Below, in pieces: positions 19,973-38,626 of a stretch of DNA of 38,973 nucleotides. The position numbers and the translations under genes were made by a program. Positions within the stretch are counted from its first letter, which is position 1. Each line of letters starts with the position of its first letter. The notes beneath the pieces are model-generated. The model was not told the DNA's origin. It ran no database searches and worked only from the letters and a program-made list of their open reading frames with translations. The stretch comes from Erysipelotrichaceae bacterium (GTDB taxonomy: Bacteria > Bacillota_I > Bacilli_A > RFN20 > CAG-826): assembly GCA_012744375.1 (NCBI GenBank), contig JAAYCD010000054.1, forward strand, positions 1 through 38,973. Reading direction: 5' to 3'.

Positions 19973-21028
19973 CTAAAAAATAAACAAGAACAATTTTGCA
20001 ACTAAAAAGCCACATAAACCGCAGCCTGGGAAAGTCAAAATCCAAGTAAACACCATATCCTTGACGACTGTCCAATCTACCGACTTAAAACGTTTTGCTG
20101 AGCCGGTGCCCATAATTGATGTGGTTTTCATATGTGTGGTTGAAACTGGAATACCTACCAGCGAAGAGAAAAATAAACAAGTGGCAGCAGTAAAATCTGA
20201 CACAAAGCCTTGATATTGATTTAACCTAACCATATCCATTCCCACCGTCTTAATAATCTTATAACCACCAATAGACGTACCAAGACCCATGATTAACGAA
20301 CAATAAATCATTAGCCATATTGGAATAACAAAGGCTCCGTTGGCGCCAACAACACTTGGCTCAATAAAACTAGTTGCCAGTAAGAAAACGCCCATGAATT
20401 TTAATCCATCCTGAGCTCCATGCATAAACGCCATTGAAGCACCACCGAATATTTGCGCTTTGGCAAAGAAACGATTTGCTTTATTGCGGTTGACGTTTTT
20501 AAAGATTACTTGTACGAGTTTGGTTATACCAAAAGACAAACCGAAACCGATAACTGAAGCAATGATAATTCCATACAACACACTAAGCCAGGCTGGACCA
20601 GTGCCACTAAAACCTGCTAAGCCGTTTAACGCTACTGCAGAACCTGCAATACCCGCGATAAGTGCATGACTTTCACTAGTCGGAATACCAAACATCCATG
20701 CCGCAGTTGCCCAAATAACAATGCCCACCATTCCAGCGCATATAGCAATTAGCTGTTGATTAGGGTCACCGTTAAAGTTTCCCATATTCGAAATAGTTGC
20801 AGTCACACTACTGCTAATCAAAGACATAGCAAGGACACCAAGAAAATTAAAAATGACCGCCATAATAATTGCGGCTTTTGGTGACATTGCCCGTGTAGAT
20901 ACGACTGTAGCGATTGCGTTGGGAGCATCTGTCCAACCATTAACCAAAATAACAAACGAAACCAAAATTACTACAACGAGCAAGATCGGTTTATCCACTG
21001 CTAGGTTAAAAAAATCAAATAATTCCAT
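19973..21028 (-). CDS. pit: PiT-family inorganic phosphate transporter
   Basis: NGWTDAPNAIATVVSTRAMSPKAA; GIPVSTTHMKTTSIMGTG. Confidence 0.92.
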   Translation of the reverse strand: MELFDFFNLAVDKPILLVVVILVSFVILVNGWTDAPNAIATVVSTRAMSPKAAIIMAVIFNFLGVLAMSLISSSVTATISNMGNFNGDPNQQLIAICAGMVGIVIWATAAWMFGIPTSESHALIAGIAGSAVALNGLAGFSGTGPAWLSVLYGIIIASVIGFGLSFGITKLVQVIFKNVNRNKANRFFAKAQIFGGASMAFMHGAQDGLKFMGVFLLATSFIEPSVVGANGAFVIPIWLMIYCSLIMGLGTSIGGYKIIKTVGMDMVRLNQYQGFVSDFTAATCLFFSSLVGIPVSTTHMKTTSIMGTGSAKRFKSVDWTVVKDMVFTWILTFPGCGLCGFLVAKLFLFIF

Positions 21029-21062
21029 TATTTCTTAATCTACTCCTTTTTGAAATCATAAA

Positions 21063-21575
21063 ACATTAAATCATATATTTAATACATTGGGGTTAAGTCG
21101 AAATTCCAATTCCTTTCAACTATACCCTTTCGCCTTTAGTGGGATGGACAACACCACAAAGTGTCTAATCCACCTTCTTTGGTTTTATGGTCTCAATTGG
21201 AGTTAATCAATAGAATTACTAATACGTGTCGAAGACTTTTCGCTCAACGATTCTTCGAGATAATAGCCTCATCGCTTGGTTCAGTTGTTTAGTAAGTTGA
21301 ACCAACCGATGAAAATACTATCCTTCCCTTGCGAGCGATTTGATCTTACGACCGTTAACGTTTTTCTAAAATCTTAACCTTTTCAAAACCATTAATAAGT
21401 TTCCACTAGGGTAAGGCTTCTTTGGTGGTAAACATTTTTTTCTAACACGCATAGTTTCAATACCATGGCGTTAGTCATACAAAATGGTAATTGCACCACC
21501 AATCATAGTTAAACATATTTAGTGTTAATACGGCAATATATTTTGGAAATTAAGGCTAAAGCTTCGGTTATTATA
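21063..21575 (-). ncRNA. Candidate large structured RNA (stand-alone ncRNA or long 5' leader of pit), family unknown
   Basis: No ORF in ORF track; minus strand folds by hand into >=8 helices with minus-specific G-U pairs, GNRA-capped hairpins and a long-range helix 21403-21417/21132-21142; TATAAT at 21570-21575. Confidence 0.6.
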
Positions 21576-21579
21576 TATT

Positions 21580-21594
21580 AAAAAACGGTCCGTT
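21580..21594 (-). terminator. Weak terminator-like hairpin downstream of methyltransferase
   Basis: Minus AACG GAC CGTT TTTT. Confidence 0.35.
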
Positions 21595-21624
21595 AGCCGC
21601 GCCGCTTCTTTATTATATTTATTA

Positions 21625-22374
21625 TTATGGTTTTACACTTCTTAATGCTAAAAATGTCGGGATATTAAGGTCTTGAAGTCTAGTTTCTCCATCGGTGTCC
21701 TCAAATAAATGCGTCAACATAAAACCAGCTTCAAGTTGCCCGCCGATTTGTTCCTCCAATGTGTGCGAAAACTGGACGCCACCATCTTCTTTTTGCAAAA
21801 ATTCCATTTGTTCCGGATTAACAAGTGGGTTAAATGGTAATTTGTTAACAACGCGTTCATATTTCTCATCTAGTATGTAATCAATAAACATATCAATGCC
21901 AGAAACAAGGACGCCTCCATGTTTTAAAACCCGATAACATTCTTTCCAAATTGGTTTAACATCTTGAACATAACAATTGGAGACAGGGTGAAAAATCACA
22001 TCAAATTCACCATCTTCAAAAGGAAGTCTTTCGGTCATATCACCACGGATAACTCTAATTTGATAACCTTCTCTTGCGGCGACCAAGTGCTCACTATTTA
22101 ATTGTTCGGGTGAATAATCAAACACCGTACAATTCGCTCCGAGCGCAGCAAATATTGGCATTTGTTGACCACCACCACAAGCTAAACCTAAAAGTTTTTT
22201 TCCTTTCAAGTTTCCAAGCCATTCATGAGGCACAGGTTTAGTTGGCGTTAAGGCCACATCCCAAATACCCTTTTTTGCATTATCAAAAACTTCATGAGTA
22301 ATTGGTTGCCCCCATTTCCAACCACTTTTTACCCAGCGATCAATGGTTTCGGCGTTAATATCTTGATATTTCAT
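21625..22374 (-). CDS. Class I SAM-dependent methyltransferase
   Basis: KLLGLACGGGQQMPIFAALG; ATG at 22374 preceded by SD GGAGA (ORF track uses upstream TTG at 22389). Confidence 0.88.
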   Translation of the reverse strand: MKYQDINAETIDRWVKSGWKWGQPITHEVFDNAKKGIWDVALTPTKPVPHEWLGNLKGKKLLGLACGGGQQMPIFAALGANCTVFDYSPEQLNSEHLVAAREGYQIRVIRGDMTERLPFEDGEFDVIFHPVSNCYVQDVKPIWKECYRVLKHGGVLVSGIDMFIDYILDEKYERVVNKLPFNPLVNPEQMEFLQKEDGGVQFSHTLEEQIGGQLEAGFMLTHLFEDTDGETRLQDLNIPTFLALRSVKP

Positions 22375-22492
22375 AATTATATTCTCCAAATTTAATTTAA
22401 TTCATAGCTGTTTTTGTAAGCCATCATCTAACATTGGCAGCAAGAAACTATAGATAAATGAATACTTTAATGTTTATAAGTATTCCACAAGG

Positions 22493-23033
22493 TCAGTGTT
22501 TTTTTCTTTCGTGGTGTCTATTTGATGGCTTGGCCGCTATTACTGGATATCCGGCGACCAGAATACTGACAGGAACAAGGTAATCTAGAATTTCAAATTC
22601 CGTGACTAGTGCTTCAGGAATAAAATGCATTACCCAAGTTGAACCAAGACCTTGGTTAGTAATTTCTAGCATCATATAAGTAGTGGTAATTGCTGCATCT
22701 ATTTCGCCACTGAGTTTTTCATCAAACTCTCTTTTCCAACACTGAGTCTGATCATAGCAAACAATAAAAGCTAATGTTTCATCGAAATGTGAGTATTTGC
22801 ACTTTTGCAATTTTAATAAAGCTGTTGGGCTTTTAAAACAAAAATCTTAAGCGGCTGATAGTCACACGCGCTAGGGGCAATTTTTGCCGCTTCTATAATA
22901 GCACAATTTTATCTTCTTCTACTTGTTGAGATGAAAATTTTCTCACTGAATAACGCTCGTTTAACAAAGCCAACAAATCAAAACCTTTTCCTTTGATTAA
23001 ATCTTTTTCTTTTTTAGAAAAAACATTTTTCAT
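22493..23033 (-). pseudogene. Nitroreductase-family protein, disrupted by two apparent single-base deletions
   Basis: Three frames join into one protein: MKNVFSKKEKD..LLNERYSVRKFSSQQVEEDKIV / IIEAAKIAPSACDYQPLKIFVLK / SPTALLKLQKCKYSHFDETLAFIVCY..GYPVIAAKPSNRH; breaks near 22900 and 22832. Confidence 0.8.
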
Positions 23034-23053
23034 TTTGTAGACCCTTTTCTTAG

Positions 23054-23908
23054 TTATTTTTGTTTTGCTATCGAAGAAGTTCTTTTGCGTCTAACAACTG
23101 GTTTTTTAACTGGTTGCTCAACTTCTGGCTCTTTAGGAATTTGCATTAATCTAGGTTTAATTGCAATTTTCCATACATTCTTCTCTTCAATTAAATCGTA
23201 ATAATCTGCGAGTTGTTTTTGGAAAAAAGGCAAGATTCTTTTATTTGGAGCTCCATAGTTTTTTGGATTAAATTCTTTGTCCTTAACACCCAACAAAATA
23301 GATAGTCTTGATAAGTACATGTAGCCATCGCTATCTTTGTTTTGATCGATAATACCATTGACCAAAGCAACAAATTCATTTAAACGTTGATCGATGCTTT
23401 TGTTGATTTCTTCCAATTCTTTTTTATTAGATACTACTTTTTTAACTTCTTGAGATTTCTTTGCATTATAAATTTGTTCAACGTTAATAAATTGATCGCA
23501 AGCACTCTTGAAGTGTTTGCTAACATTGTCTCTACCAGCACCGATGACAAAACGATTGTTTTCTTTTAGTTTTTTAACTAAAGGGGTGAAGTCTGCATCA
23601 TGGGTAGCTAAACAAAAAGCGTCAATGTAATCTTTGCTTAAAAGCTCAATTGCCTCAATTGACATTCTAATATCAACAGCATTTTTGCCAGTTGAAAACC
23701 TGAGTTGATAAATTGGATCCAACTCTAATTTCTTAAATTTATCTGCAAGTTTTTTGCCTTCTTCATTAGAAAAATAAACTCGCCCGATAATCACATCTCC
23801 GATTTCGTCGAGTTCATCAAACAAGATATCAAAATAATGGTCCTCATTGAAATTATCATAATCGACCAGCAAAGCGATTCTTTTCATTTCAGTATTAGTG
23901 TTTTTCAT
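23054..23908 (-). CDS. NYN (LabA/DUF88 PIN-like) domain protein with C-terminal OST-HTH/LOTUS domain
   Basis: IALLVDYDNFN...KNAVDIRMSIEAIELL..FCLATHDADFTPLVKKL; C-term DSDGYMYLSRLSILLGVKDKEFNPKNYGAPNKRILPFF. Confidence 0.82.
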   Translation of the reverse strand: MKNTNTEMKRIALLVDYDNFNEDHYFDILFDELDEIGDVIIGRVYFSNEEGKKLADKFKKLELDPIYQLRFSTGKNAVDIRMSIEAIELLSKDYIDAFCLATHDADFTPLVKKLKENNRFVIGAGRDNVSKHFKSACDQFINVEQIYNAKKSQEVKKVVSNKKELEEINKSIDQRLNEFVALVNGIIDQNKDSDGYMYLSRLSILLGVKDKEFNPKNYGAPNKRILPFFQKQLADYYDLIEEKNVWKIAIKPRLMQIPKEPEVEQPVKKPVVRRKRTSSIAKQK

Positions 23909-24123
23909 ATTTATTCCTATGCCTTTGCTTACTAAAAGTATATTTTACTTTTGGTAGGATTAAAATCATTTTTGCCTGAAAGGGTTGTTCCGTTGATTAT
24001 TTTTATTGTAATAAGCAATATTTATACCCAATTATCAAAGTTTCGACTTCCAACTTATATATGCTATCTTTGAATATATTGCTTTTTTACAAATTCAATT
24101 GCTTGTCTTTAAGGTAACAAATC

Positions 24124-24164
24124 ACTGACTTAGTTATTGACCAAAATAGTCAGTATGATATTAT
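24124..24164 (+). promoter_or_regulatory. tetR operon promoter with overlapping inverted repeat
   Basis: -35 TTGACC 24137-24142, 16 nt, -10 TATTAT 24159-24164; inverted repeat ACTGACT (24124-24130)/AGTCAGT (24148-24154). Confidence 0.6.
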
Positions 24165-24170
24165 AAGTGC

Positions 24171-24791
24171 ATGAAACAATTTGTTAACTTTGAAAAATTG
24201 CCGGAAGAAAAGAAGATAAAAATAATCAACGCCGGGCTTGAACTATTTAGTCAATATGGTTATGACCAGACACCTACTGACTTAATCGTAAAAAAAGCCC
24301 AAATATCAAAAGGAGCATTATTCCTATATTTCGAAAACAAAGAAAATTTTTTTATATATCTTTTTGATTACGCTTCTAAGAAATTGATTAATGAGGTTAA
24401 TCCAAATCCCCCTCAAATCAACATGGATATTTTTGATTACTTGCCTTATGTTACAAAACAAAAAATAGACTTATTATCTAAGTGTCCTTATCTCATGAAT
24501 TTTGTAATGAAAGCCTATGAACAAAACTACCAATTATTAAAAGATAAAGGCGGTATTGATTTTTTTGAAAACTATCAAAAGCAAGCTAGTTTCATCTATG
24601 ACAAAATTGATTTTACCACTCTTAAAGAAGATATTTTCAAAGAGAGATTTCTTTCTTGGGTAACAATGATATCGCAGGGCTTTGTCCAAACCTATATCCA
24701 ATTTCCTAGTCAAATTCACGACAAATTAATCAATGATTTATATGCACTTTTTGATCAATTAAAGAAAAGCTTTAGAAAGGAAAAATTGTGA
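24171..24791 (+). CDS. TetR/AcrR-family transcriptional regulator
   Basis: KIKIINAGLELFSQYGYDQTPTDLIVKKAQISKGALFLYFENKENFF. Confidence 0.9.
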   Translation: MKQFVNFEKLPEEKKIKIINAGLELFSQYGYDQTPTDLIVKKAQISKGALFLYFENKENFFIYLFDYASKKLINEVNPNPPQINMDIFDYLPYVTKQKIDLLSKCPYLMNFVMKAYEQNYQLLKDKGGIDFFENYQKQASFIYDKIDFTTLKEDIFKERFLSWVTMISQGFVQTYIQFPSQIHDKLINDLYALFDQLKKSFRKEKL

Positions 24792-25656
24792 TTATAGCCA
24801 AAGGATTAACTAAAGACTATGGCAATGGCAGAGGAATTTTTGATGTCAGTTTCCAAGTGGCTGCTGGCAGCTGCGTCGGTTTTTAGGCCCAAATGGAGCT
24901 GGGAAAACCACTACCATTCGACACTTGATGGGTTTTATTCAATATTATGACGGCGAGGTTTCCATTAAAGGATTAAACTGCAAAACCGACCAAGTGAAAA
25001 TTCAACGTTTTTTGGGCTATTTGCCTGGAGAAATTAACTTTTTTGATGATATGCGTGGTAATGAACTTATCGGCCTAATTGCCAAGATGCAGGGATTGAA
25101 ATCTTTGGATTATTCCAAAACACTTTTGCAGTACTTTGAATTAAATCCGAATATGAAAATCAAAAGAATGAGCAAAGGGATGAAACAAAAGTTGGCCATT
25201 GTTATAGCTTTTATGGGTGACCCAGATATTTTTATCATGGACGAACCCTCTAGTGGATTAGATCCTTTGATGCAACAAAAGTTAGTTAATCTCATATTAG
25301 AACATAAAAAACGTGGCAAAACTTTCTTTCTCTCTTCCCATAGTTTTGAAGAAGTAGAAAAAACGTGTGATCGCATATTAATGATTAGGGAAGGCAGAAT
25401 AATTAATGATAGCCACGTCGAGACATTAAAGAAAGAACAACTTAGGAAATATGAGGTGGTATTTGCTAAGCGTGAGGATGCTGAGCGTTTTGCTAAACAA
25501 AATGGTGGCTTAATTAATAAAGATTGTTTCGTCACCGTCGAAGTATTAGATTCATTTAGTTCTTTGCTTGCCCAACTGAAAGATTTCGAAATTATTGATA
25601 TTAGTAAGAAGAATCTGAATTTAGAAGAAATATTCATGAAATATTATGGTGATTAG
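24788..25656 (+). CDS. ABC transporter ATP-binding protein, interrupted in frame by TAG at 24884; -1 shift at T5 (24880-24884) restores Walker A
   Basis: GTG start overlaps tetR stop (GTGA). Frame 1: VIIAKGLTKDYGNGRGIFDVSFQVAAGSCVGF*; -1 frame continues LGPNGAGKTTTIRHLMGFIQYYDGEV..RMSKGMKQKLAI..IFIMDEPSSGLD. Confidence 0.85.
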
Positions 25657-25657
25657 T

Positions 25658-26464
25658 ATGATTAATTTGACGTTATATAAAAAAGAAATGAAGCAAAACA
25701 TGCTCATTTTTCTCATTTTTGTTAGTTTGACTATTTTGTATGGAGTGATTGTTTCAGCACTCTTTGATCCTGTCGCAGAAGGGTTGGGTTGGATGCAAAT
25801 TATGCAAGAAACATATCCCGAGATGCTCGATTTTATCGGTTTTAATGTTGCCCAGTTTAACGACTATCAGTATTTTGTTTCTGGTTATCTCTATGGAATG
25901 CTATTTATACTTTTTGGATTAATCTATATCAACATATTATCAAACAGGCTAATATACCGCTATCTTGATCGTGGTTCAATTGTTTTGCTATTAGCAACAC
26001 CAAACTCACGAACAAAAATAATAATCACACAAATCAAAGTTTTGGGCACCTATATTTTTGCTTTAACCATGTCGATGTTTTTAATTACAGGTGGCTTTGG
26101 AGCAATATTCAACCCAGCGTATGTTGATTTTGGAAAATTATTTTACCTCAACATATCATTCTGCATTATGCTCACCTTTATTTGCTCGGTCATGGTGCTG
26201 TGTCATTGTCTATTTGAAGGAAAGTTGGCTCAAGGATTGGGTATTGGTTTACCAATTATCTTTTTCTTCATGCGACTTGTCAGCAACTTAGGAGACAACT
26301 ATGAAATTGCATCCTATTTTACCCCCTTTAGCTTATTTAATCCGATGTTATGTATAAATTATGATGCTCTATCATTTGTATATAACGGAATATTAATCGC
26401 TCTATCTATTGTGCTTTTTGGTTTTACCTTATTTGGTTTCAACAAAAGAGATTTATCGATTTAG
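25658..26464 (+). CDS. ABC transporter permease
   Basis: Polytopic; follows the ATPase; likely start MINLTLYKKEMKQN (ORF track 25646). Confidence 0.8.
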   Translation: MINLTLYKKEMKQNMLIFLIFVSLTILYGVIVSALFDPVAEGLGWMQIMQETYPEMLDFIGFNVAQFNDYQYFVSGYLYGMLFILFGLIYINILSNRLIYRYLDRGSIVLLLATPNSRTKIIITQIKVLGTYIFALTMSMFLITGGFGAIFNPAYVDFGKLFYLNISFCIMLTFICSVMVLCHCLFEGKLAQGLGIGLPIIFFFMRLVSNLGDNYEIASYFTPFSLFNPMLCINYDALSFVYNGILIALSIVLFGFTLFGFNKRDLSI

Positions 26465-26480
26465 ATTATACATATATAAA

Positions 26481-26506
26481 AATAATGGCAAACGCCATTA
26501 TTTTTT
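26481..26506. terminator. Intrinsic terminator, shared by the ABC operon (+) and tRNA-Gly (-)
   Basis: AATAATGGC AAAC GCCATTATT TTTT, perfect 9-bp stem. Confidence 0.88.
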
Positions 26507-26516
26507 ATTATTTAAT

Positions 26517-26785: not shown

Positions 26786-26834
26786 AACTGATGTCGTTAC
26801 ACAAAGATTAGGCTTGCTTACTTCGTGCTTAATT

Positions 26835-26862
26835 ATTATACGAAATACAAAAATAATGTCAA
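26835..26862 (-). promoter_or_regulatory. Consensus sigma-A promoter for tRNA-Thr-Val-Gly cluster
   Basis: Minus TTGACA - 16 nt - TATAAT. Confidence 0.75.
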
Positions 26863-26901
26863 AGTTTTTTCGATTAAGTTTTTGGGAAATTTAATGGCTT
26901 T

Positions 26902-27783
26902 TTATTTTTTATATAGTGCCTTAATGTAATCGATAAAATTTTCTTCAATTACTGATAGTTTGTGACCCTTCCTCCAGACGAAAAGATATTCAACCGAAGT
27001 GTCGTCTCCAGCGATGTCTTTGGATATAATTGAACTATTCAAAATATAACTTGTTTTTGGGAAAATACTCACGCCAACATTACGACCCGCAAGTGCGGCG
27101 GCGTCTAAATAATTATCCATCTCACAAACAATATTTGGTTCGGTATGAATTTTTCTAAACCATTTACTAATTTGGTCAATAAACGCTTTCCTACTTGGAA
27201 CAATTAGTGCCTCATTTTTCAAAGAGTTTATATCAACTATATCGCCTTCAAGTTTAGCCAAAGGATGATCGACATTCATAAATGCAACGAGTTTTTCTTC
27301 GCCAACTTTAATTGCATTCAGCAAAATTTCATCAAAAGGGGCTGTAATAACCGCTAAGGAAATCAAGCCACCGCGCATTTTTTCGATTAAATCATCACTA
27401 TTTCCATCGATAACACGGAAGCGAACATAAGGATATTCTTTCATCGATTCACTAATCCAAGTGGCCGCAATATCTGGCGCCATTCCCTCGACTAAGCCAA
27501 TAGAAATCGTTCCTCTTAAACCGTGATTCATATTAAAAATTTCACTCTTGGTTTGATCGACCAAACCGAGAATATCTTTACTTTTTAAGTAAAGGAAATT
27601 TCCTTCCTCCGTTAACTTCAAACGTCTTTTGCCTCTTATAAATAGCTTGACGCCAAGCTCCTCTTCTAGGTTTTTAATTTGGTTACTCAAAGGGGGCTGG
27701 GACATCATTAAAATTTTACTGGCCCGAGTGATGTTAAGTTCTTCTGCGACAACAACGAAATAAGACAGAGTTTTTAAATCCAT
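26902..27783 (-). CDS. LysR-family transcriptional regulator
   Basis: MDLKTLSYFVVVAEELNITRASKILMMSQPPLSNQIKNLEEELGVKLFIR. Confidence 0.93.
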   Translation of the reverse strand: MDLKTLSYFVVVAEELNITRASKILMMSQPPLSNQIKNLEEELGVKLFIRGKRRLKLTEEGNFLYLKSKDILGLVDQTKSEIFNMNHGLRGTISIGLVEGMAPDIAATWISESMKEYPYVRFRVIDGNSDDLIEKMRGGLISLAVITAPFDEILLNAIKVGEEKLVAFMNVDHPLAKLEGDIVDINSLKNEALIVPSRKAFIDQISKWFRKIHTEPNIVCEMDNYLDAAALAGRNVGVSIFPKTSYILNSSIISKDIAGDDTSVEYLFVWRKGHKLSVIEENFIDYIKALYKK

Positions 27784-27900
27784 AATTTATAATTAGTATA
27801 CCATACGAAAAAAATATAATAACTATAATTTTATATGTATTTTTAATAATTAATAAATTTTTTTATGATGAAAGAAATTATTATCCAGGAGGTCTTTTCA

Positions 27901-28011
27901 ATGGAAAGAATGGTTTACATGGTTTCTAGAACAAAAGACCTTATTAGCGATTCGAACCTTTATGTTCTAGCAGGTAATGTTTTCTTTACATTATCAAGGG
28001 AGGCTTTATGA
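27901..28011 (+). CDS. Candidate 36-aa leader peptide overlapping pyrG start (ATGA)
   Basis: [44 protein letters not shown]; stop TGA 28009-28011 overlaps pyrG ATG 28008-28010; too short for ORF track. Confidence 0.55.
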
Positions 28012-29606
28012 AGTATATCTTTGTCACTGGTGGAGTAGTTTCTGGCTTAGGGAAGGGTATTTGCGCCGCTTCGTTAGCGCGTTTACTCAAGCTTAGAGGC
28101 TACCGCGTTCAAAATCAAAAGTTTGATCCATACTTAAATGTTGATCCGGGAACGATGAACCCATTTCAACATGGTGAAGTTTTTGTCACCAGTGATGGAG
28201 CGGAAACGGATTTGGACCTTGGTCATTATGAGCGGTTTACCGACGAGTCGCTCGATGCCTCCAATTCCGTTTCTAGCGGCAAAATCTATTGGAATGTTGT
28301 CACAAAAGAAAGACGTGGGGAGTACCTAGGTAAAACCGTTCAGATTATTCCGCACGTCATTAACGAAATAAAGAATTTTATATACACAAACGACAAGAAA
28401 AATCTCGATATTGCGATTTGCGAAATCGGTGGCACCGTTGGTGATATTGAAAGTCAACCTTTCTTAGAAACCATTCGCCAAGTTGCCAGAGAAAAAGGAC
28501 GCAACAATGTCTTGTTCATTCATGTCCCATTAATCGTTGAAATTCCAGGAAGCGGTGAACTAAAAACTAAACCAGTGCAACGTTCGGTTAAAGAATTACA
28601 GTCTGCTGGAATTCAGCCAGACATTTTAGTGTGTCGCACTTCAAGAAGATTAAATAGCAAACTCAAAGAAAAAATTTCATTATTTTGCAACGTTGAAAAA
28701 GAATGTGTTTTTGAAAACATTACTGCTTCAACAATTTACGAAGTCCCGTTATTGCTTAACGAACAAGGTTTAGTTGCTCAAGTCTTAAAAAAACTATCTT
28801 TAGAAGACAATGAGATTCCAAATCTTGATAATTGGATTGCGATGGTAAAGAAAATCAAAAATGCGAACCAAAAAGTTAGTATCGCTTTAGTTGGTAAATA
28901 TGTTGAACTTCATGATGCTTATTTATCAGTTGAGGAATCTTTATTTCATGCCGCGAGTAGCTTAGATACAATTTGCGATATTAAATGGATTGATTCAGAA
29001 GAAGTGAATAGTGAAAACGTCGATTGTATGATTGGCGATGTTGATGGAGTTATTATTCCTGGCGGATTCGGCATCAGAGGTATTGAAGGCATGATTGAAG
29101 TTGCGCGTTATGCAAGAGTACACAATGTCCCATGCTTTGGCATATGCTTAGGTATGCAAATAATGACGATTGAATATGCTCGTCATGTTTTGAATTTCGT
29201 CGATGCAAACTCCACTGAATTTAACGAAAATACTCCTTATCCAGTTATCGACTTACTGCACGAGCAAAAAAATATCGAAGATAAAGGAGCAACCATGCGC
29301 TTAGGCTCTTATCCTTGTCGCATTGAAGAAGGAACGCTTGCACATCGCTTATATAAAACTACAGAGATTATTGAAAGACATCGCCACCGTTATGAATTCA
29401 ATAATACCTATCTCGAAGATTTTGAAAAGTCAGGTTTGATATTAAGTGGTTCATTTACGAGGGGAAAACTCGTTGAAATTATCGAACTACCAACGAATAA
29501 CTACCACATCGCCTGCCAATTCCATCCAGAATTCAAAAGTCGCCCAGATCGTCCACATCCCTTGTTTGTTGGCTTAATCGAAGCGTCTTTAAAAAGGAGA
29601 AAATAA
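28008..29606 (+). CDS. pyrG: CTP synthase
   Basis: [31 protein letters not shown]; GATase [10 protein letters not shown]. Confidence 0.98.
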
Positions 29607-29609
29607 ATA

Positions 29610-31148
29610 ATGAATCAAACTGTCATCATTTTAGATTTTGGAGCGCAATATGCCGAAGTAATTGCGCGCAAAGTTAGAGAATGTAATGTCTATTGTGAGG
29701 TATTATCGTGGCGAACACCACTAGAAACCATTATTGCGAAAAAGCCAATCGGTATTATACTTTCTGGTGGTCCTAATAGTGTTTACGCCACAGATGCCCC
29801 CACTATTTCAAAACAAATATTTGATTTAAATATTCCGGTTTTAGGTATTTGCTATGGCATGCAATTAATGATGCAACTATTAGGAGGCAAAGTAATTCCT
29901 GCTCAAGACAATTTGTCGCGTGAATATGGAAAAACAATTACTAATTTTCGCAATCAATGTTTACTGTTTAAAGGTTTGCCCGCAAAAAGTGTCACTTGGA
30001 TGAGTCACGGTGATGTTGTTGAAGCTATTCCTAATAGTTTTAAAGTTTCGGCTTATACTTCGCGCTGTCCATATGCTGGAGTATACGATGAAGTGCGTCA
30101 TTTTTATGGTATGCAGTTTCATCCAGAAGTAGAACATACAAAACATGGAAAAGAAATGATTCGAAAGTTCTTGCTTGATATTTGTCACGCAACAGGTGAC
30201 TGGTCAATGAAGGACTTTTTAGTTACTACAGTAGAACGATTAAAAATGGAAATTGGTGAAGAGCGCGTTTTACTCGCCCTTTCAGGTGGCGTAGATTCCA
30301 CTGTTGCTGCGGTCGTTTTGTCAAAAGCCATTAAAGAGCGTTTGATTTGTATTTATATTAACCATGGTTTAATGCGCAAAAATGAAACTGAAGAAATTAA
30401 AGAGCGATATAAGCAACTTAATCTCAATGTTCACTATGTCGATGCATCTAAGGAGTTCTTGAAAGCTTTAGCAGGTGTTGAAGAACCAGAGCAAAAAAGA
30501 CGTATCATCGGCAATATGTTTATCGAATCATTTGTTGGCAAAGCCAAAGAATTTGGTGGCGTTTCATACTTAGCGCAAGGCACTATATATCCTGACGTTA
30601 TCGAGTCTGGCTCTATCAATGGAAATTTGATTAAGAGCCACCACAATGTTGGTGGTTTGCCTAGTAAAATGCCGTTTAAAAGAATTATTGAGCCACTCGC
30701 TATATTATTTAAAGACGAGGTGCGCAAACTAGGACTTGAGCTTGGTTTACACGAAGATTTTGTTTATCGACAACCTTTTCCAGGTCCAGGCTTGGCGGTT
30801 CGCATTATCGGCGCTATTACCGAAGAAAAAATTGCTATTGTTCAAGAAGCAGACGCCATCTTGCGTGAAGTCATTAAAAAAAGGCACTGGAATATGAAAA
30901 TATCGCAACACTTTGCAGTATTGAGCAACATGAAGAGCGTCGGCGTAATGGGCGATAGTCGTTCGTATCATTACACTATTGCTATTCGCGCAGTGTCTAC
31001 TAGTGACTTTATGACGGCAAATTATGTTAAACTGCCATACAGCATTCTAGATGAGATTTCCAGACGAATCGTTAACGAAGTAAGAAATGTTAATCGCGTC
31101 GTATATGACATTACATCCAAACCACCGGCCACGATTGAATATGAATAG
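29610..31148 (+). CDS. guaA: GMP synthase (glutamine-hydrolyzing)
   Basis: ILDFGAQYAEVIARKVRE; LGICYGMQ; LALSGGVDSTVAA; C-terminal TSKPPATIEYE. Confidence 0.98.
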   Translation: MNQTVIILDFGAQYAEVIARKVRECNVYCEVLSWRTPLETIIAKKPIGIILSGGPNSVYATDAPTISKQIFDLNIPVLGICYGMQLMMQLLGGKVIPAQDNLSREYGKTITNFRNQCLLFKGLPAKSVTWMSHGDVVEAIPNSFKVSAYTSRCPYAGVYDEVRHFYGMQFHPEVEHTKHGKEMIRKFLLDICHATGDWSMKDFLVTTVERLKMEIGEERVLLALSGGVDSTVAAVVLSKAIKERLICIYINHGLMRKNETEEIKERYKQLNLNVHYVDASKEFLKALAGVEEPEQKRRIIGNMFIESFVGKAKEFGGVSYLAQGTIYPDVIESGSINGNLIKSHHNVGGLPSKMPFKRIIEPLAILFKDEVRKLGLELGLHEDFVYRQPFPGPGLAVRIIGAITEEKIAIVQEADAILREVIKKRHWNMKISQHFAVLSNMKSVGVMGDSRSYHYTIAIRAVSTSDFMTANYVKLPYSILDEISRRIVNEVRNVNRVVYDITSKPPATIEYE

Positions 31149-31159
31149 GAGTCAAATTT

Positions 31160-32494
31160 ATGACCAAAGAACAAATTAAAAATATAATCGCTGAGAAAAA
31201 TATCTCTTATATTAGAATGCAATTCACCGACATGCTCGGAGATATTAAAGCGGTTGAAATACCAATCAAGAAACTTGATGATGCATTAGATAATAAAATC
31301 ATGTTTGATGGTTCATCCATCGAAGGATTTGTGCGCATTAAAGAAGCAGATATGTATTTGCACCCAGATATCGATACCTTTTTGGTTTTACCTTTTGAAA
31401 ATGGCAAGTTCGGCGGTGTAGCCCGTTTCATATGTGACGTTTATACTCCTGACGGTAAACCTTTTGAAGGAGATCCACGCTATATCTTAAAAAGACAAAT
31501 TAAGAAGATGAATACAATGGGTATTGACACGTTGTGTGTTGGTTTTGAACCAGAATTTTATCTATTTAAAATAAACTCAGATGGTTCGATTTCAAATACC
31601 CCTACTGATAAAGCCAGCTATTTTGATTTATCCCCGTTCGCTGGTGGCGACGATATTAGAAGAGAAATCGCTTTAACTTTAGAAGAAATGGGTTTCGAAA
31701 TTCAGGCTTCTCATCACGAGGTTGGGCCTTCACAAAATGAAATTACTTTCAAATTCAGCGATGTCTTAAGTGCTTGTGATAAAGTTCTCACTTTTAAACA
31801 AGTCGTTAAAGTAATCGTAAAAAATCATAACTATTTAGCTTCCTTTATGCCTAAACCAATTAATAAACAAGCTGGTAATGGTATGCATACCAACTGCTCT
31901 TTATATGACAACGTTAAGGGCAACTTGTTCTATGATCCAAAAGAAAGCATGGAATTATCAATGCTTTGTAAAAAATGGATTACAGGTATAATTAGACACA
32001 CTAGAGAATTTGCCGCTTTAACTAATCCGATTGTTAATTCTTATAAGCGTTTGGTCAGTGGTTATGAGGCACCAATTTACGCTTGTTGGAGCGACGCTAA
32101 TCGCAGTTCATTAATTAGAATTCCTGCCATTCGTGGAGCCGCCACTAGAACCGAATTAAGAAATGTTGATCCTTGTGCTAATCCATATCTCGCTTTAGCG
32201 GGCATCTTGGCTGCTGGCCTTGACGGAATTGCTAATGTTAAAGATAATGAAATCATCTCTCCAGTTAAAGATAATTTATTTGAATTGAGCGATGACGAGA
32301 TTGACGCAAAAGGAATTACTCGCCTTCCGGAAACTTTATATTCAGCCATTAAAGAATTAAAAGAAAGTGCGTTAATGAAAGAAACACTTGGAAAACATTT
32401 GTTTAACAAATATATTGAAGCCAAAGAGAAAGAATGGAAAGAGTATCACACTACGGTCAGTGAATACGAACTTGCCAAATATTTAGGTAGATAA
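31160..32494 (+). CDS. glnA: Glutamine synthetase type I
   Basis: IRMQFTDMLGDIKAVEIP; MFDGSSIEGFVRI; NPIVNSYKRLVSGYEAP. Confidence 0.97.
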   Translation: MTKEQIKNIIAEKNISYIRMQFTDMLGDIKAVEIPIKKLDDALDNKIMFDGSSIEGFVRIKEADMYLHPDIDTFLVLPFENGKFGGVARFICDVYTPDGKPFEGDPRYILKRQIKKMNTMGIDTLCVGFEPEFYLFKINSDGSISNTPTDKASYFDLSPFAGGDDIRREIALTLEEMGFEIQASHHEVGPSQNEITFKFSDVLSACDKVLTFKQVVKVIVKNHNYLASFMPKPINKQAGNGMHTNCSLYDNVKGNLFYDPKESMELSMLCKKWITGIIRHTREFAALTNPIVNSYKRLVSGYEAPIYACWSDANRSSLIRIPAIRGAATRTELRNVDPCANPYLALAGILAAGLDGIANVKDNEIISPVKDNLFELSDDEIDAKGITRLPETLYSAIKELKESALMKETLGKHLFNKYIEAKEKEWKEYHTTVSEYELAKYLGR

Positions 32495-32495
32495 C

Positions 32496-34277
32496 ATGTG
32501 TGGAATTGTCGGTGCAGTTGGGTTTATAAACCCAAAAGAATATATCATTGAGGGTTTAAAAAAACTTGAATATCGTGGATATGATTCCGCGGGCGTTGCT
32601 ATGCTCAGCGACAATACAATTAAGATTATTAAGGATAAGGGCACAATCGATCATCTTGCCACATTACTCCCAGAATGTTTTGATACTGATTTAGCTATCG
32701 GCCATACGCGTTGGGCAACTCATGGTGCACCAAATAAAACCAATTCTCATCCTCACATTTCAAAAAGCAAAAAAATTTCCATTGTCCATAACGGAGTAAT
32801 CGAAAACTATTTAGACGTTAAGTCGTTCCTTAATAAGCATAACTATGATTTTGCGACGAGTACCGACACTGAAGTAGTTGTAAATTTAATTGAACTTTTT
32901 TATGAGCAAAATGGCGACATGTTGACTGCCTTACAAAAAAGCATGCGGATACTTAAAGGCAGTTATGCCTTGTGTATTATTAATGTCGATGACCCTAATT
33001 CCATCTACATAATGAAAAATTGTTCACCACTGCTAATCGGTGCTTGTGAAGATTTTACGCTTGTTTCTTCTGATGCTGGGGCGATGACTAAGTATACAGA
33101 TCGATTCATTGAACTTAGCGATCTTGAATACGGAAAAATTCAAAAGGACAAAGTGGAAATTTATAACATCAATGGTCAAAGAGTTGATAAAGTAGCTACT
33201 AAAAAGAATTTAGAAGATTTAGAAATTGACTTAAATGGCTATCCTCATTATATGCTTAAAGAAATTGATGAAATTGAAAACGTTATCCATAAAATCATCA
33301 GTCAATACTACGTAGATGATGAATTTAATTTTGATAAAGATTTGCTTTCCGACATGCGTCGCGCTGATAACATTATTTTTATTGCATGTGGCACTTCTTA
33401 TCACGCTTCTTTAGTAGGCGGCAGATATTTTGAAGTATACAATAAATCCGCCTCGATATATTTTGCTTCTGAATGGGCTTTTCATCCAACCTTTCCAGGC
33501 AATAAACCATTTGTGATACTAATTTCACAATCTGGCGAAACTGCTGATGTAATCCACTGTCAAAAAATTATTAATGAGCACAAGATTCCGCATCTTGTTA
33601 TCACTAATACTGATGGTAGCACTTTACAAAGAAATGCGATGTATTATTTACTCCTTTATGCTGGTAGAGAAATTTCTGTTGCTTCCACCAAAGCTTATGT
33701 CGCGCAAGTAGCATTGCTCGCCATACTTTCTCGAGCGCTTGGTGATATCAAACAAGTCATTACTGATCTATATAAATGTATTGATATTATTCGGGACATT
33801 CGTTATCACTGGCAAGATAAAATCAAAGACATTGCCATGCAAATTAAAGACATAAAAGACGTCTTTTATTTAGGACGTGGCTACGATTACTTTATGGCCC
33901 TTGAAGCTTCATTAAAACTAAAAGAGATTAGTTATATTCATTCCGAAGCTTTCGCGGGAGGAGAAATCAAACATGGCCCTATAGCCTTAATCGAGCAAGG
34001 AATGCCAGTAATTATATTTATTACCGACCCAGAAATTACCCACAGCATTCGCGGTAATGTTGAAGAAGTAAAAGCTAGAGGAGCCAAAACTTTTACCATC
34101 GCTAGAGATTCATTAAGCCGTGAAACAGATACGATTATTATACAAGAATATCCTTCATATCTTTCTAGTGTCGCTGTATCACCATTCGCCTTTTATTTAG
34201 CGTACTATGTCTCATTATTTAAAGGTTACAATGTTGATAAACCTAGAAACTTAGCAAAAAGCGTAACCGTTGAATAG
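32496..34277 (+). CDS. glmS: Glutamine--fructose-6-phosphate aminotransferase
   Basis: MCGIVGAVG; LEYRGYDSAGVAML; C-terminal DKPRNLAKSVTVE. Confidence 0.98.
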   Translation: MCGIVGAVGFINPKEYIIEGLKKLEYRGYDSAGVAMLSDNTIKIIKDKGTIDHLATLLPECFDTDLAIGHTRWATHGAPNKTNSHPHISKSKKISIVHNGVIENYLDVKSFLNKHNYDFATSTDTEVVVNLIELFYEQNGDMLTALQKSMRILKGSYALCIINVDDPNSIYIMKNCSPLLIGACEDFTLVSSDAGAMTKYTDRFIELSDLEYGKIQKDKVEIYNINGQRVDKVATKKNLEDLEIDLNGYPHYMLKEIDEIENVIHKIISQYYVDDEFNFDKDLLSDMRRADNIIFIACGTSYHASLVGGRYFEVYNKSASIYFASEWAFHPTFPGNKPFVILISQSGETADVIHCQKIINEHKIPHLVITNTDGSTLQRNAMYYLLLYAGREISVASTKAYVAQVALLAILSRALGDIKQVITDLYKCIDIIRDIRYHWQDKIKDIAMQIKDIKDVFYLGRGYDYFMALEASLKLKEISYIHSEAFAGGEIKHGPIALIEQGMPVIIFITDPEITHSIRGNVEEVKARGAKTFTIARDSLSRETDTIIIQEYPSYLSSVAVSPFAFYLAYYVSLFKGYNVDKPRNLAKSVTVE

Positions 34278-34291
34278 GGTCACGCTTTTTT
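34256..34291. terminator. Bidirectional terminator overlapping both convergent stop codons
   Basis: AAAAAGCGT..ACC..GGG..ACGCTTTTTT spans glmS stop (34275-34277) and the oxidoreductase stop (from 34280). Confidence 0.8.
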
Positions 34292-35800
34292 CTTATTTAG
34301 TATTGGAGTGAAGATATAATTTAATCTTTCTTTTTTGCATATTCTTTGAATCGCAAATTCTCCTTGTGTCATAGCGATTGGTAAACCGCCCGGACCTTGT
34401 AGCCATTGACCAGACAAATAAAAATTTTTAAGTCCTTTTAAGGTGCCATTATGTGTATACATGCTATCGCGCTTTGTAAAAGTGTAACTCATGAACACAC
34501 CATTTGTGGAATTAACGTAACGCTTAAATGTATGTGGAGTGGAAACATCTAATAATTCAAGTTCCCCCACATGTGGTAGATGGGCTTTAATGCGCGTTTT
34601 AACTTGTTCAGCAATTTCTTTTTTCTTCGCTAGATATGCTGAGCGATTTTTGCTTAAAGCTTGCCAATAAGGGTAATTTAAATTGCTTTGATCAAGCATG
34701 ATAAATAAAACTGTTCGACTGCCACGGGTAAATGATTCGTCATAACTATAACTACGAATAGTTAGGTGTTCAATTGTTTCGCCACCGAGTTCAAAAGGTG
34801 GGCAATCAAATGAATAAGGTGTTGGTAAATTGTTATCCTTTTTAATTGCAAAATGAACCATGACACAGCTTGGAGAAGGATGGCGTTTTGGATTATTAAA
34901 ACGCTTTTCAAATGATGGCAATGGATATTGATTTAACAATAATTTTTTTATTGTGTAATTAATATCTAAACAAGAAATAACATAATCGCCCTTAATGATA
35001 GTATCATCGACTAACTTAGCACCTTTTGCCACACCATGTTCCTTAAAAATACTAGTCACATTTGCGTTTAATCTTAAAGAACCGCCTAAAGCTATAAACT
35101 TATCTTTCATGCGTTCAACCATCGGTTTAGATCCGCCTTTTGGCACACCACCATCACCCATAGCAACAGTCGCATAACTATAAATCATTGAAAATAAATT
35201 ACCATACCCAGTTTGCGCTTTGGTAAGAGCAAATCTAATGCCGGGCGATTTAAATTTTTTTGCAAATTGAGCACTAGTTTGAAACATCGTATTTAAATAG
35301 CTTGGCCAAACAGAAAAAACTTGTAAACCTAGTTTAAGTTTGCGGGACAAAGGAATCATTGATAAAGGTAAATCAAGCGGTAATTCAACTTTTATAAAGT
35401 CTTTGACCATCTTAAAAAATTTACGAATCATTTTTTTATCAACTGGTGAAACCGCAATCCATTCCTTTTCAGCGCGATCTAAATCACACCACATGGTCAC
35501 GCTTTGACCTTGATATTCGTATGTACCCCAACTTGGTAAAAGTAAAATATCTTCTTGTGATCGAAAAGCATCGAGATTTTTCCACATTTCATTAAGTAAT
35601 GTGCCTTCTTTGGTGCCTGTTAACCAGTGGATACATCCATCCAAATAAAAGTTGCGACGAAACCACCCAGTACACATGCCGCCTACTGATGGGTTTTTTT
35701 CTAAAATAACAGCGTGAAAACCATTTTGTTCCGCGTAGATTCCAGCGGATAATCCAGCCACACCACCGCCGATAATGACAATTGTTTTCTTGTTTTGCAT
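34280..35800 (-). CDS. FAD-dependent NAD(P)/FAD oxidoreductase, CrtI/phytoene desaturase-like
   Basis: TIVIIGGGVAGLSAGIYAEQNGFHAVILEKNPSVGGMCTGW; C-term GQWLQGPGGLPIAMTQGEFAIQ. Confidence 0.88.
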   Translation of the reverse strand: MQNKKTIVIIGGGVAGLSAGIYAEQNGFHAVILEKNPSVGGMCTGWFRRNFYLDGCIHWLTGTKEGTLLNEMWKNLDAFRSQEDILLLPSWGTYEYQGQSVTMWCDLDRAEKEWIAVSPVDKKMIRKFFKMVKDFIKVELPLDLPLSMIPLSRKLKLGLQVFSVWPSYLNTMFQTSAQFAKKFKSPGIRFALTKAQTGYGNLFSMIYSYATVAMGDGGVPKGGSKPMVERMKDKFIALGGSLRLNANVTSIFKEHGVAKGAKLVDDTIIKGDYVISCLDINYTIKKLLLNQYPLPSFEKRFNNPKRHPSPSCVMVHFAIKKDNNLPTPYSFDCPPFELGGETIEHLTIRSYSYDESFTRGSRTVLFIMLDQSNLNYPYWQALSKNRSAYLAKKKEIAEQVKTRIKAHLPHVGELELLDVSTPHTFKRYVNSTNGVFMSYTFTKRDSMYTHNGTLKGLKNFYLSGQWLQGPGGLPIAMTQGEFAIQRICKKERLNYIFTPILNKKKA

Positions 35801-35857
35801 ATCTTAATCGTAATGAAAAGATATGACAAAATCACTCTACTAAGTTAGATAATTTCT

Positions 35858-38626
35858 CTACTGAGCTTGAGGGCGTTTATTTTGAGCTTTTTTCTTTAAT
35901 AAACGAATGAGTACAATAATTTCGTGGAGCACTAATGGAGCCATCGAAAGAAGAATGACGTATAACCAGTGAACAAAATCAAGTGTGTATGTGGAGAAGA
36001 ATGTATTAACTCCTGGTATTTCAACGACGGCAAATTGTAAGGCGATACCAACGATAAAAGCAATCCAGATGAGCTTATTTTTTGTTTTGAAATTGTGTAC
36101 GAAAGATTTCTTAAATGACGTCATACCTAGCATGTGGAACAACTCGCTTATTGCGAGTACACAGAACGCTGAGGTTTGACTCATCGCTAAGACATCGGCA
36201 TTAAAGTTTGGACTATTTGGATTTAGGATATCAGCAATTGCTTCTAAAGAATATCTTTGATATTCAATCATTGGAATCATTAAGAAAGCAAATACGGTGG
36301 TAATGGTAATTAATAAACCAAAACCAAATGTTATCCAATATCCACCATTGGAAAATAAAGATTCTTTAGGATTGCGTGGCATGTCGTCCATGATGCCATC
36401 TTCTTTTTCATCTGCCCCCAAAGCAACCGCAGGAAGCGAATCGGTAATTAAGTTAACCCATAAAATATGGATGGCAATTAACGGGGTAGGCAAGGAGTTA
36501 TTTAAAAATACAGACATTAAAACAACGATAAACATCGCCAACACTTCCGCGATGTTAGTGGAAAGTAAGAACAATACTGTTTTCTTGATATTTGCGTAAA
36601 TACCGCGGCCTTCTTCAACTGCCTTTTGAATTGAGGCAAAGTTGTCATCGGTCAAAACCATGTCCGCCGCCCCCTTAGCAACGTCAGTGCCAGTAATGCC
36701 CATCGCAATGCCGATATCAGCATTTTTCAAAGAAGGAGCATCATTAACACCATCGCCAGTCATTGCAACGATTGAGCCATTCGCCTTAATTGCGTTAACG
36801 ATTTGCACTTTATTAGACGGAGAAACACGAGCAAATACATGGACGGTTTTCACCTTTTCTTGTAGTTCTTCTGGGGTCAAAGTATCAATTTCATCACCCG
36901 AAAGAGCTACTTCGCCATCAGCGACAATACCTAATTGTTTTGCAATGGCTAAGGCGGTCGTCTTGTGATCACCAGTAATCATAATGGTATTAATACCAGC
37001 TTTTTTAAATATTGAAACAGCGTTAGCAGCCTCTGGTCTTGGTGGATCAATCATCCCTACTAAACCGACGAACACTAATTGTTCTTCTTTAAGTTCGTCG
37101 TCATATTTATAAGCAAGTGCCAAAACGCGCAAAGCATCAACCGCCATCGCATCACTTGCCATCAAAATATTCTTTTTATCTTTATCGCTCATCTCACGCA
37201 CTTCACCATTAATATCTATGTGACTTGCGACTCTTAAAATTGAGTCCATCGCACCTTTAGTAAAAATGAGTTTTTTACCATTATAGATATGTTGAGTGGA
37301 CATCATTTTTCTAACAGAATCAAACGGAAGTTCATTAACGCGAGGAGCAATTTTTTCTAGTTCGCTTTTGTGTTGATTCATTTTATTAGCGTATTCGACT
37401 AAGGCGATTTCTGTTGGATCACCATAAACACCTTCATCAACTACAGCATTACTACAAAGCGATAAACCCATCGATAAGAACTTATTTTCATCATTTAAGA
37501 TGTCTTTTTCTTCGATTAGTTTGCTGTTGATATAAGAGCGAACGACTGTCATCTTGTTTTGGGTAAGAGTACCGGTTTTATCAGAACATACGACCGAAAC
37601 AGCACCTAAAGTTTCAACAGAAGGAAGCTTTCTCACAATCGTGTTGGCTCTAACCATTTTTTGAACGCCAAGCGCTAAAACAATTGTCACAACCGCAGGT
37701 AAACCTTCAGGTACGGCAGCGACCGCCAAGGAGATGGAAAACATAAAGTTATCTAAGATACCAGCAATCCAACCATCAGCATCAAGATTACTATTTTTCA
37801 AAGCTAAATCGAGAAGTTGAACAGAAAATAACACCGCCACAATAATGAGCGTTAATATACCTAAAAACTTCGAAAGTTTGCTCAATTGTTTTTGTAATGG
37901 AGTTTCATCTTCTTCGCTTTCAGAAAGAAGCTTAGCGATTTTTCCGGTTTCGGTTTGCATACCAGTTAAAACAACCACACCTTCACCACGACCATATACA
38001 ACTGGGGTGGACATATATACCATATTTAAGCGATCTCCAACACCAATTTCATCAGAGAAAACTACATCAGCATTTTTCTCAACGGGCAAAGATTCACCAG
38101 TTAAAGATGATTCGTCTGTTTTTAAGTTAATCGCTTCAATTAATCTTAAATCAGCGGGGACGGTTCTGCCTTCTTCGAGAATGACTATATCACCAGGAAC
38201 TAGTTGTTCAGCTTTAAGTTCAACAAGTTGTCCATCTCTTCTAACAACACAAGTTGGTGAAGACATCTTTTTTAAAGCTTCGAGTGATTTTTCAGCTTTG
38301 CTTTCTTGAACAGTGGAAATGATGGCGTTTAAGAAAACAACACCCATGATAATAAGGGCATCAGCAAACTCAAAATGTTCGCCATGTTGAATGACATTAA
38401 ATAAACTGATGGCCAAACTCATAAAAGCCGCCGCCAATAAAATAAATATCATCGGGTCTTTGAAGTTAGAAAAAAAGACCAAGATAAGTGGGGCCTTTTT
38501 CTTTTCAGATAGTTTGTTTGGTCCATACTTAGTAAGGCGTTCATTCACTTCATCTTTTGACAATCCGTGTTTTCGATCAACATTAAGTTCATTTAGGACT
38601 TCTTTTGTGCTTTTGGTTTCGAACAT
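35858..38626 (-). CDS. P-type cation-transporting ATPase (Ca2+/Mn2+ P2-type)
   Basis: DKTGTLTQNKMTVV; GDGVNDAPSLKNADIGIAMGITGTDVAKGAADMVLTDDNF; TGESLPVEK. Confidence 0.95.
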   Translation of the reverse strand: MFETKSTKEVLNELNVDRKHGLSKDEVNERLTKYGPNKLSEKKKAPLILVFFSNFKDPMIFILLAAAFMSLAISLFNVIQHGEHFEFADALIIMGVVFLNAIISTVQESKAEKSLEALKKMSSPTCVVRRDGQLVELKAEQLVPGDIVILEEGRTVPADLRLIEAINLKTDESSLTGESLPVEKNADVVFSDEIGVGDRLNMVYMSTPVVYGRGEGVVVLTGMQTETGKIAKLLSESEEDETPLQKQLSKLSKFLGILTLIIVAVLFSVQLLDLALKNSNLDADGWIAGILDNFMFSISLAVAAVPEGLPAVVTIVLALGVQKMVRANTIVRKLPSVETLGAVSVVCSDKTGTLTQNKMTVVRSYINSKLIEEKDILNDENKFLSMGLSLCSNAVVDEGVYGDPTEIALVEYANKMNQHKSELEKIAPRVNELPFDSVRKMMSTQHIYNGKKLIFTKGAMDSILRVASHIDINGEVREMSDKDKKNILMASDAMAVDALRVLALAYKYDDELKEEQLVFVGLVGMIDPPRPEAANAVSIFKKAGINTIMITGDHKTTALAIAKQLGIVADGEVALSGDEIDTLTPEELQEKVKTVHVFARVSPSNKVQIVNAIKANGSIVAMTGDGVNDAPSLKNADIGIAMGITGTDVAKGAADMVLTDDNFASIQKAVEEGRGIYANIKKTVLFLLSTNIAEVLAMFIVVLMSVFLNNSLPTPLIAIHILWVNLITDSLPAVALGADEKEDGIMDDMPRNPKESLFSNGGYWITFGFGLLITITTVFAFLMIPMIEYQRYSLEAIADILNPNSPNFNADVLAMSQTSAFCVLAISELFHMLGMTSFKKSFVHNFKTKNKLIWIAFIVGIALQFAVVEIPGVNTFFSTYTLDFVHWLYVILLSMAPLVLHEIIVLIRLLKKKAQNKRPQAQ

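Follow-up and report, generated by a model that had tools for sequence, protein, structure and literature searches.

Known leaders are usually conserved. The locus described here resembles riboswitches and other 5′ leaders that control translation in having a long, structured putative leader and a predicted helix over the Shine-Dalgarno sequence of a transporter gene. Unlike riboswitch-type leaders, the RNA has no conserved aptamer and no relatives in front of other pit genes, and a second state is unsupported. Like the large ornate bacterial RNAs GOLLD, ROOL and OLE (PMC12286853), it is intergenic, spans hundreds of nucleotides and contains several domains, but it has neither a covariance-model match nor a conserved family of homologs. 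It also shares a hairpin of 67–75 nt with IS21-like elements (G405 L161, G399 L162 and G411 L201), in which the hairpin lies directly downstream of istB. Unlike these elements, the window contains neither istA nor istB and lacks the GGGTAGGGGGGTC..CGTGCG end, and about 450 nt of other structure surround its hairpin. Our literature searches returned no paper on pit leaders or on a structured RNA downstream of istB.

The window, the 38,973-nt stretch of DNA that we analysed, is the whole of contig G000:C53 from an Erysipelotrichaceae genome of 1.13 Mb that is 95% complete. On its minus strand, a methyltransferase gene (21625–22389) is followed by a gap, pit and a DUF47/PhoU-like gene. The gap (21029–21624) measures 596 nt and the next-longest intergenic region 262 nt, less than half of that, which bears out an earlier reading of the sequence alone (the sequence-only reading) that the longest protein-free stretch of the window lies here. 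Its GC content is 34%, against 24–34% in most other gaps of the window. Further upstream, an open frame at 22493–22810 that adjoins a 243-nt gap matches only the C-terminal half of nitroreductases and is probably a broken nitroreductase gene.

At gathering thresholds, Rfam models matched only tRNAs in the window, and a relaxed search (E up to 10) of the gap region 20900–21700 returned four chance-level matches far below the cut-offs. The families that had been named for checking (ROOL, GOLLD, OLE, raiA, RNase P, tmRNA and group I/II introns) gave no covariance-model match, leaving the RNA without a family. The genome has its RNase P RNA, a class B copy (288 bits), elsewhere, at G000:C80:16062–16382. 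We recognized no protein-coding or decayed gene in the interval, a finding that would have spoken against an RNA: six-frame translations with stops masked matched no Pfam family at E 0.1, and nothing recommends the short open frames that are present (28 codons on the minus strand, for example). The 3′ half also matched an ABC transporter gene in G002 (nhmmer, E 0.049); this match falls in coding sequence and was judged chance, as were matches to a Sulfolobales virus and a Bacillus plasmid.

The minus strand of 21063–21575 folds at −142.3 kcal/mol, against −104.7 ± 5.4 kcal/mol for dinucleotide shuffles, none of which (0 of 100) was as low (z −6.9); the comparison with shuffled controls proposed earlier was thus passed. 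The plus strand of the same interval reached a z-score of only −3.2, and it is on these two scores that the strand bias rests. A strand-symmetric count of helices (26 G-U versus 25 A-C) was swamped by chance helices and is not itself support for the bias. Flanking coding windows gave z-scores scattered around 0, with isolated values to about −4. The z-score, the strand bias and the lack of any Rfam match or protein family support the proposal of a minus-sense structured RNA of unknown family, and we conclude with high confidence that the gap encodes such an RNA. Within it, the segment 21217–21362 folds at z −5.8 on the minus strand. When the central hairpin was excised and the flanks were joined, they still gave −5.3 on the minus strand and −2.8 on the plus strand; because the flanks keep this score without the hairpin, the RNA appears to be more than mobile-element scrap. 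Its features are collected in Table 1.

Table 1. Predicted features of the RNA and its surroundings; helix numbers are those of the sequence-only reading.
Feature	Position	Strand	Evidence or remark
pit, phosphate transporter (PHO4 family)	19973–21028	−	PF01384, E 4.8e-78; gene that a leader would control
Proposed whole RNA or pit leader, ~540 nt (21063–21575 extended to the pit start codon)	21029–21575	−	z −6.9 for 21063–21575
3′ domain	21029–21215	−	z −4.7
Partner strand with pit Shine-Dalgarno GGAG (21043–21046)	21031–21064	−	GGAG unpaired probability 0.00 in full fold
Segment of Shine-Dalgarno helix, CAUAAAAC/GUUUUAUG	21182–21189/21057–21064	−	Predicted pairing
A+T-only hairpin AUUAAAU/AUUUAAU, then GUUUUAU	21065–21083	−	Helix probability 0.63; weak terminator at best
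Hairpin GGGU-AGUUGAAA/UUUCGACU-ACCC (helix 3)	21090–21127	−	Probabilities 0.95–0.98
Hairpin GGUGGAU-GACACU/GGUGUU-GUCCAUC	21143–21174	−	Probabilities 0.92–0.96
Anti-Shine-Dalgarno strand	21182–21215	−	Duplex with 21031–21064, −23.6 kcal/mol
Central domain: stems GUCG/CGAC, AAGAU/GUCUU and UCGCUCG/UGAGCGA bearing a long hairpin	21228–21352	−	Probabilities 0.94–1.00
Central hairpin, ~67 nt (helix 1)	21257–21323	−	z −6.3; homologous to post-istB hairpin of G405, G399 and G411
5′ domain: 9-bp stem 21494–21502/21422–21430 around hairpin 21442–21474 (helices 4 and 5)	21422–21502	−	Probabilities 0.94–0.99
TATAAT, possible −10 box of the RNA, no convincing −35	21570–21575	−	Sequence; weak
Possible terminator of methyltransferase gene, AAGAAGCGG..CCGUUUUUU and U-tract	21580–21610	−	Helix probability 0.80; not called by consensus scan

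Four of the helices proposed from the letters alone were recovered in ensemble folding where they had been placed: helices 1 (0.86–0.98), 3 (0.95–0.98), 4 (0.94) and 5 (0.97–0.99). Helices 2, 6 and 7, of which the last two are GNRA hairpins, are present as sequence and had ensemble probabilities of 0.00, because their bases are used by the longer pairings UCGCUCG/UGAGCGA (21332–21338/21240–21246), AAGAU/GUCUU and GUCG/CGAC. Helix 2 could form alongside UCGCUC/GAGCGA only as a predicted pseudoknot. On the minus strand, helices 1, 3 and 5 contain G-U pairs, as the sequence-only reading stated, and so does helix 4.

We favour, though not strongly (probability roughly 0.45), the reading that this minus-sense RNA of about 540 nt is the 5′ untranslated leader of the pit–DUF47 operon. 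It is favoured because of the long helix over the pit Shine-Dalgarno sequence and the lack of a convincing terminator between RNA and gene; a consensus scan found no terminators, including there. RNA and pit also share the same orientation. When folding was carried through to the pit start, a helix of 24–28 bp was predicted between 21182–21215 and 21031–21064; the 3′ boundary drawn earlier was too short, and the structure runs on to the pit ribosome-binding site. Keeping 21035–21064 single-stranded costs 8.5 kcal/mol in the ensemble fold. None of 3,000 shuffled pairs was as strong as the duplex, a comparison made on one sequence only. Across the window, 1 of 1,470 other segments reached −21.3 kcal/mol with the Shine-Dalgarno strand, and other genes in the window likewise differ in how far their Shine-Dalgarno sequences are paired; the predicted helix is notable but not unique in the window. 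A two-state switch is not supported, as the competing pairing with 21366–21398 (−13.3 kcal/mol) was reached by 154 of 3,000 shuffles and stands at chance level. Against a leader, no relative's pit carries the RNA and the promoter is weak: a promoter scan did not call the TATAAT at 21570–21575.

In the leader model, the default fold would hide the pit Shine-Dalgarno sequence in this helix and restrain translation, until the helix was opened by a ligand, by a protein or RNA partner, or by translation upstream; sensing or scaffolding would fall to the upstream domains. Transcription, co-transcription with pit and translational control are all putative steps of the model.

An unlikely but serious alternative is that the gap encodes a stand-alone, trans-acting non-coding RNA of about 480–510 nt (roughly 21065–21568) that precedes pit by chance. 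The interval without the pit start region already reaches z −6.9, the methyltransferase gene may have its own terminator just upstream, and the size and multi-domain look recall known large bacterial RNAs. Moreover, pit is not linked to the RNA in relatives. The closest by pit protein are the uncultured Bacilli RGIG4026 (84% identity), AS08sgBPME_6 (G012; 83%) and RGIG4062 (84%), in all of which other sequence lies upstream of pit and the RNA was not found; in the sister genome G012, a GGDEF gene precedes pit. Against such an RNA stand its unconvincing 3′ terminator, the predicted pairing of part of its 3′ domain with the pit ribosome site, and its lack of homologs. In BLAST of 95 and then 224 family genomes, the window was the sole match with a meaningful E-value; the other DNA matches (E 0.0006–1) were short and scattered. 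When a single-sequence covariance model was built from the central 146 nt, neither the family nor 279 genomes of the order yielded a match other than the source sequence, which also makes a multi-copy repeat in this genome unlikely. By these comparisons the whole RNA is an orphan, absent from all relatives searched.

The central hairpin does have relatives. BLAST over 395 genomes of the class matched it in G405 and G399, both of one other family, with E about 6e-8 per single genome, and both hairpins lie directly 3′ of istB. G405 carries a full IS21-like istA–istB pair (IstB_IS21, 7.5e-27; rve, 1.2e-9), and the G399 contig starts inside istB. The 3′ arm holds 26–28 nt identical between the window and G405, and nearly so in G399, in the same sense and with the same G-U pairs. 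A structural model of these three hairpins (R2) led to a third element in yet another family, G411, at E 0.0044; we consider it convincing despite this value because it lies directly after istB. The arms of the G411 hairpin have changed yet still pair, and its IstB is 74% identical to that of G405. Conversely, when the three element ends were combined into a profile, it matched the window at the hairpin only (32.6 bits, E 5.9e-12 in 1.6 kb searched). The region of homology is the 3′ end of istB in these IS21-like elements and may take in the last codons ahead of the hairpin; the sequence-only reading had not anticipated such an origin. Other class-level matches were judged chance: L154, L158, L159 and L160 resemble coding sequence, the L155 match is short and A-rich, and L156 falls within an apparent T-box leader before thrS.

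In the four-sequence alignment of the hairpin, 91% of cells are paired, against 34–49% in slid controls, and 4 of 23 pairs have changed on both sides. Covariation, the signal of a structured RNA that the sequence-only reading had looked to homologs for, could be measured for the central hairpin only, where it was positive but thin: with four sequences, the covariation measures are attained in 36–58 of 500 shuffles. One U-G pair is kept in all four sequences and one G-U pair in three; these few wobble pairs suggest that selection acts on RNA read in the sense of istB, corresponding to the minus strand of the window. That the central hairpin and the element hairpins share a common ancestor is well supported, unlike the route and direction of transfer; part of the RNA probably derives from mobile-element sequence.

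The elements themselves (L161:5635–8011, L201:7803–10173 and L162:1–320) have in common a 2.4-kb block of istA, istB, the hairpin, about 100 nt and GGGTAGGGGGGTC..TGGGGTTTCGTGCG. Their post-istB region folds better than shuffles (z −3.6, or −4.9 with part of istB) and may be a structured RNA or an element end of its own. The end of this region has short matches to phage records. In viral contigs, exact 16–20-mers gave nothing or unrelated places, and searches with a degenerate hairpin pattern and with IstB gave no match. Upstream of the G405 element, L161:1325–4504 holds a DUF5131-like gene and a gene of unknown family that precedes a DEAD-box helicase gene; together they might form an anti-phage island.

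This homology raises a rather more doubtful alternative, that the interval is a non-functional relic in which debris of an IS21-like 3′ end lies beside neighbouring inverted repeats and the good folding comes merely from inherited hairpins. The orphan status of the RNA would fit, as would the break in synteny with G012 exactly upstream of pit; synteny resumes only at a tRNA cluster (26516) and a P-type ATPase (35887). Two blocks of the window, 21029–26516 and 26800–35880, are missing from the syntenic place in G012, and the tRNA cluster between them is conserved (93%). A relic is harder to reconcile with the folding of the flanks without the hairpin and with the kept pairing of the hairpin, including its changes on both sides. 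Nor is any istA, istB or element end recognizable in the window, where the GGGTAGGGGG..GTC end sequence common to the three elements is absent from either strand, and IstB has no match in the genome at E 1e-15.

A bolder reading is that a conserved structured RNA follows istB in a lineage of IS21-like elements and that the RNA in the window is a domesticated, enlarged descendant of it, controlling a host phosphate transporter; we regard this as improbable. For the leader model, the ancestry that the hairpin shares with the post-istB hairpin makes it probable that the leader came together recently within this lineage, partly from mobile-element sequence.

Other pit loci showed no sign of a shared RNA. 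Within the family, the sequence upstream of pit is either short or unrelated. In 80 loci with pit homologs, the median upstream gap was about 208 nt and long gaps were common, which speaks for a leader here too. Several clostridial pit loci (L080, L122, L125, L143 and others) have regions, about 420 nt before pit, that are 72–82% identical over up to 420 nt and may be either coding sequence or a leader that is conserved. Structure was also predicted upstream of pit in RGIG4062 (z −3.3; L073:2240–2500), again in line with a leader; the region resembles a terminator-bearing yybP-ykoY (manganese) riboswitch (GGGAGUAG..CGUCA), but nothing there exceeded the Rfam cut-offs. Membership of a conserved pit-specific riboswitch class, diverged beyond recognition, would account for the position, the buried ribosome site and the many pit genes with long gaps before them, but it is highly improbable given that none of the 80 upstream regions resembles the window RNA, that no riboswitch family exceeded its threshold in the 20 longest-gap loci scanned and that family pit genes have no long leader. 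The RNA is most likely an unclassified structured leader and not a new widespread class of RNA.

If the RNA is a leader, a phosphate transporter gene in a reduced genome would be preceded by an RNA of unusual length, and this RNA would be lineage-specific, the kind that is invisible to comparative pipelines. If the link through the hairpin is true, mobile-element sequence has been reused in the leader of a host gene, and some IS21-like elements would carry a structured region, hitherto undescribed, at their 3′ end. That region after istB could be the part that is really new; were the bolder reading borne out, there would be a new class of mobile-element RNA and a host leader built from it.
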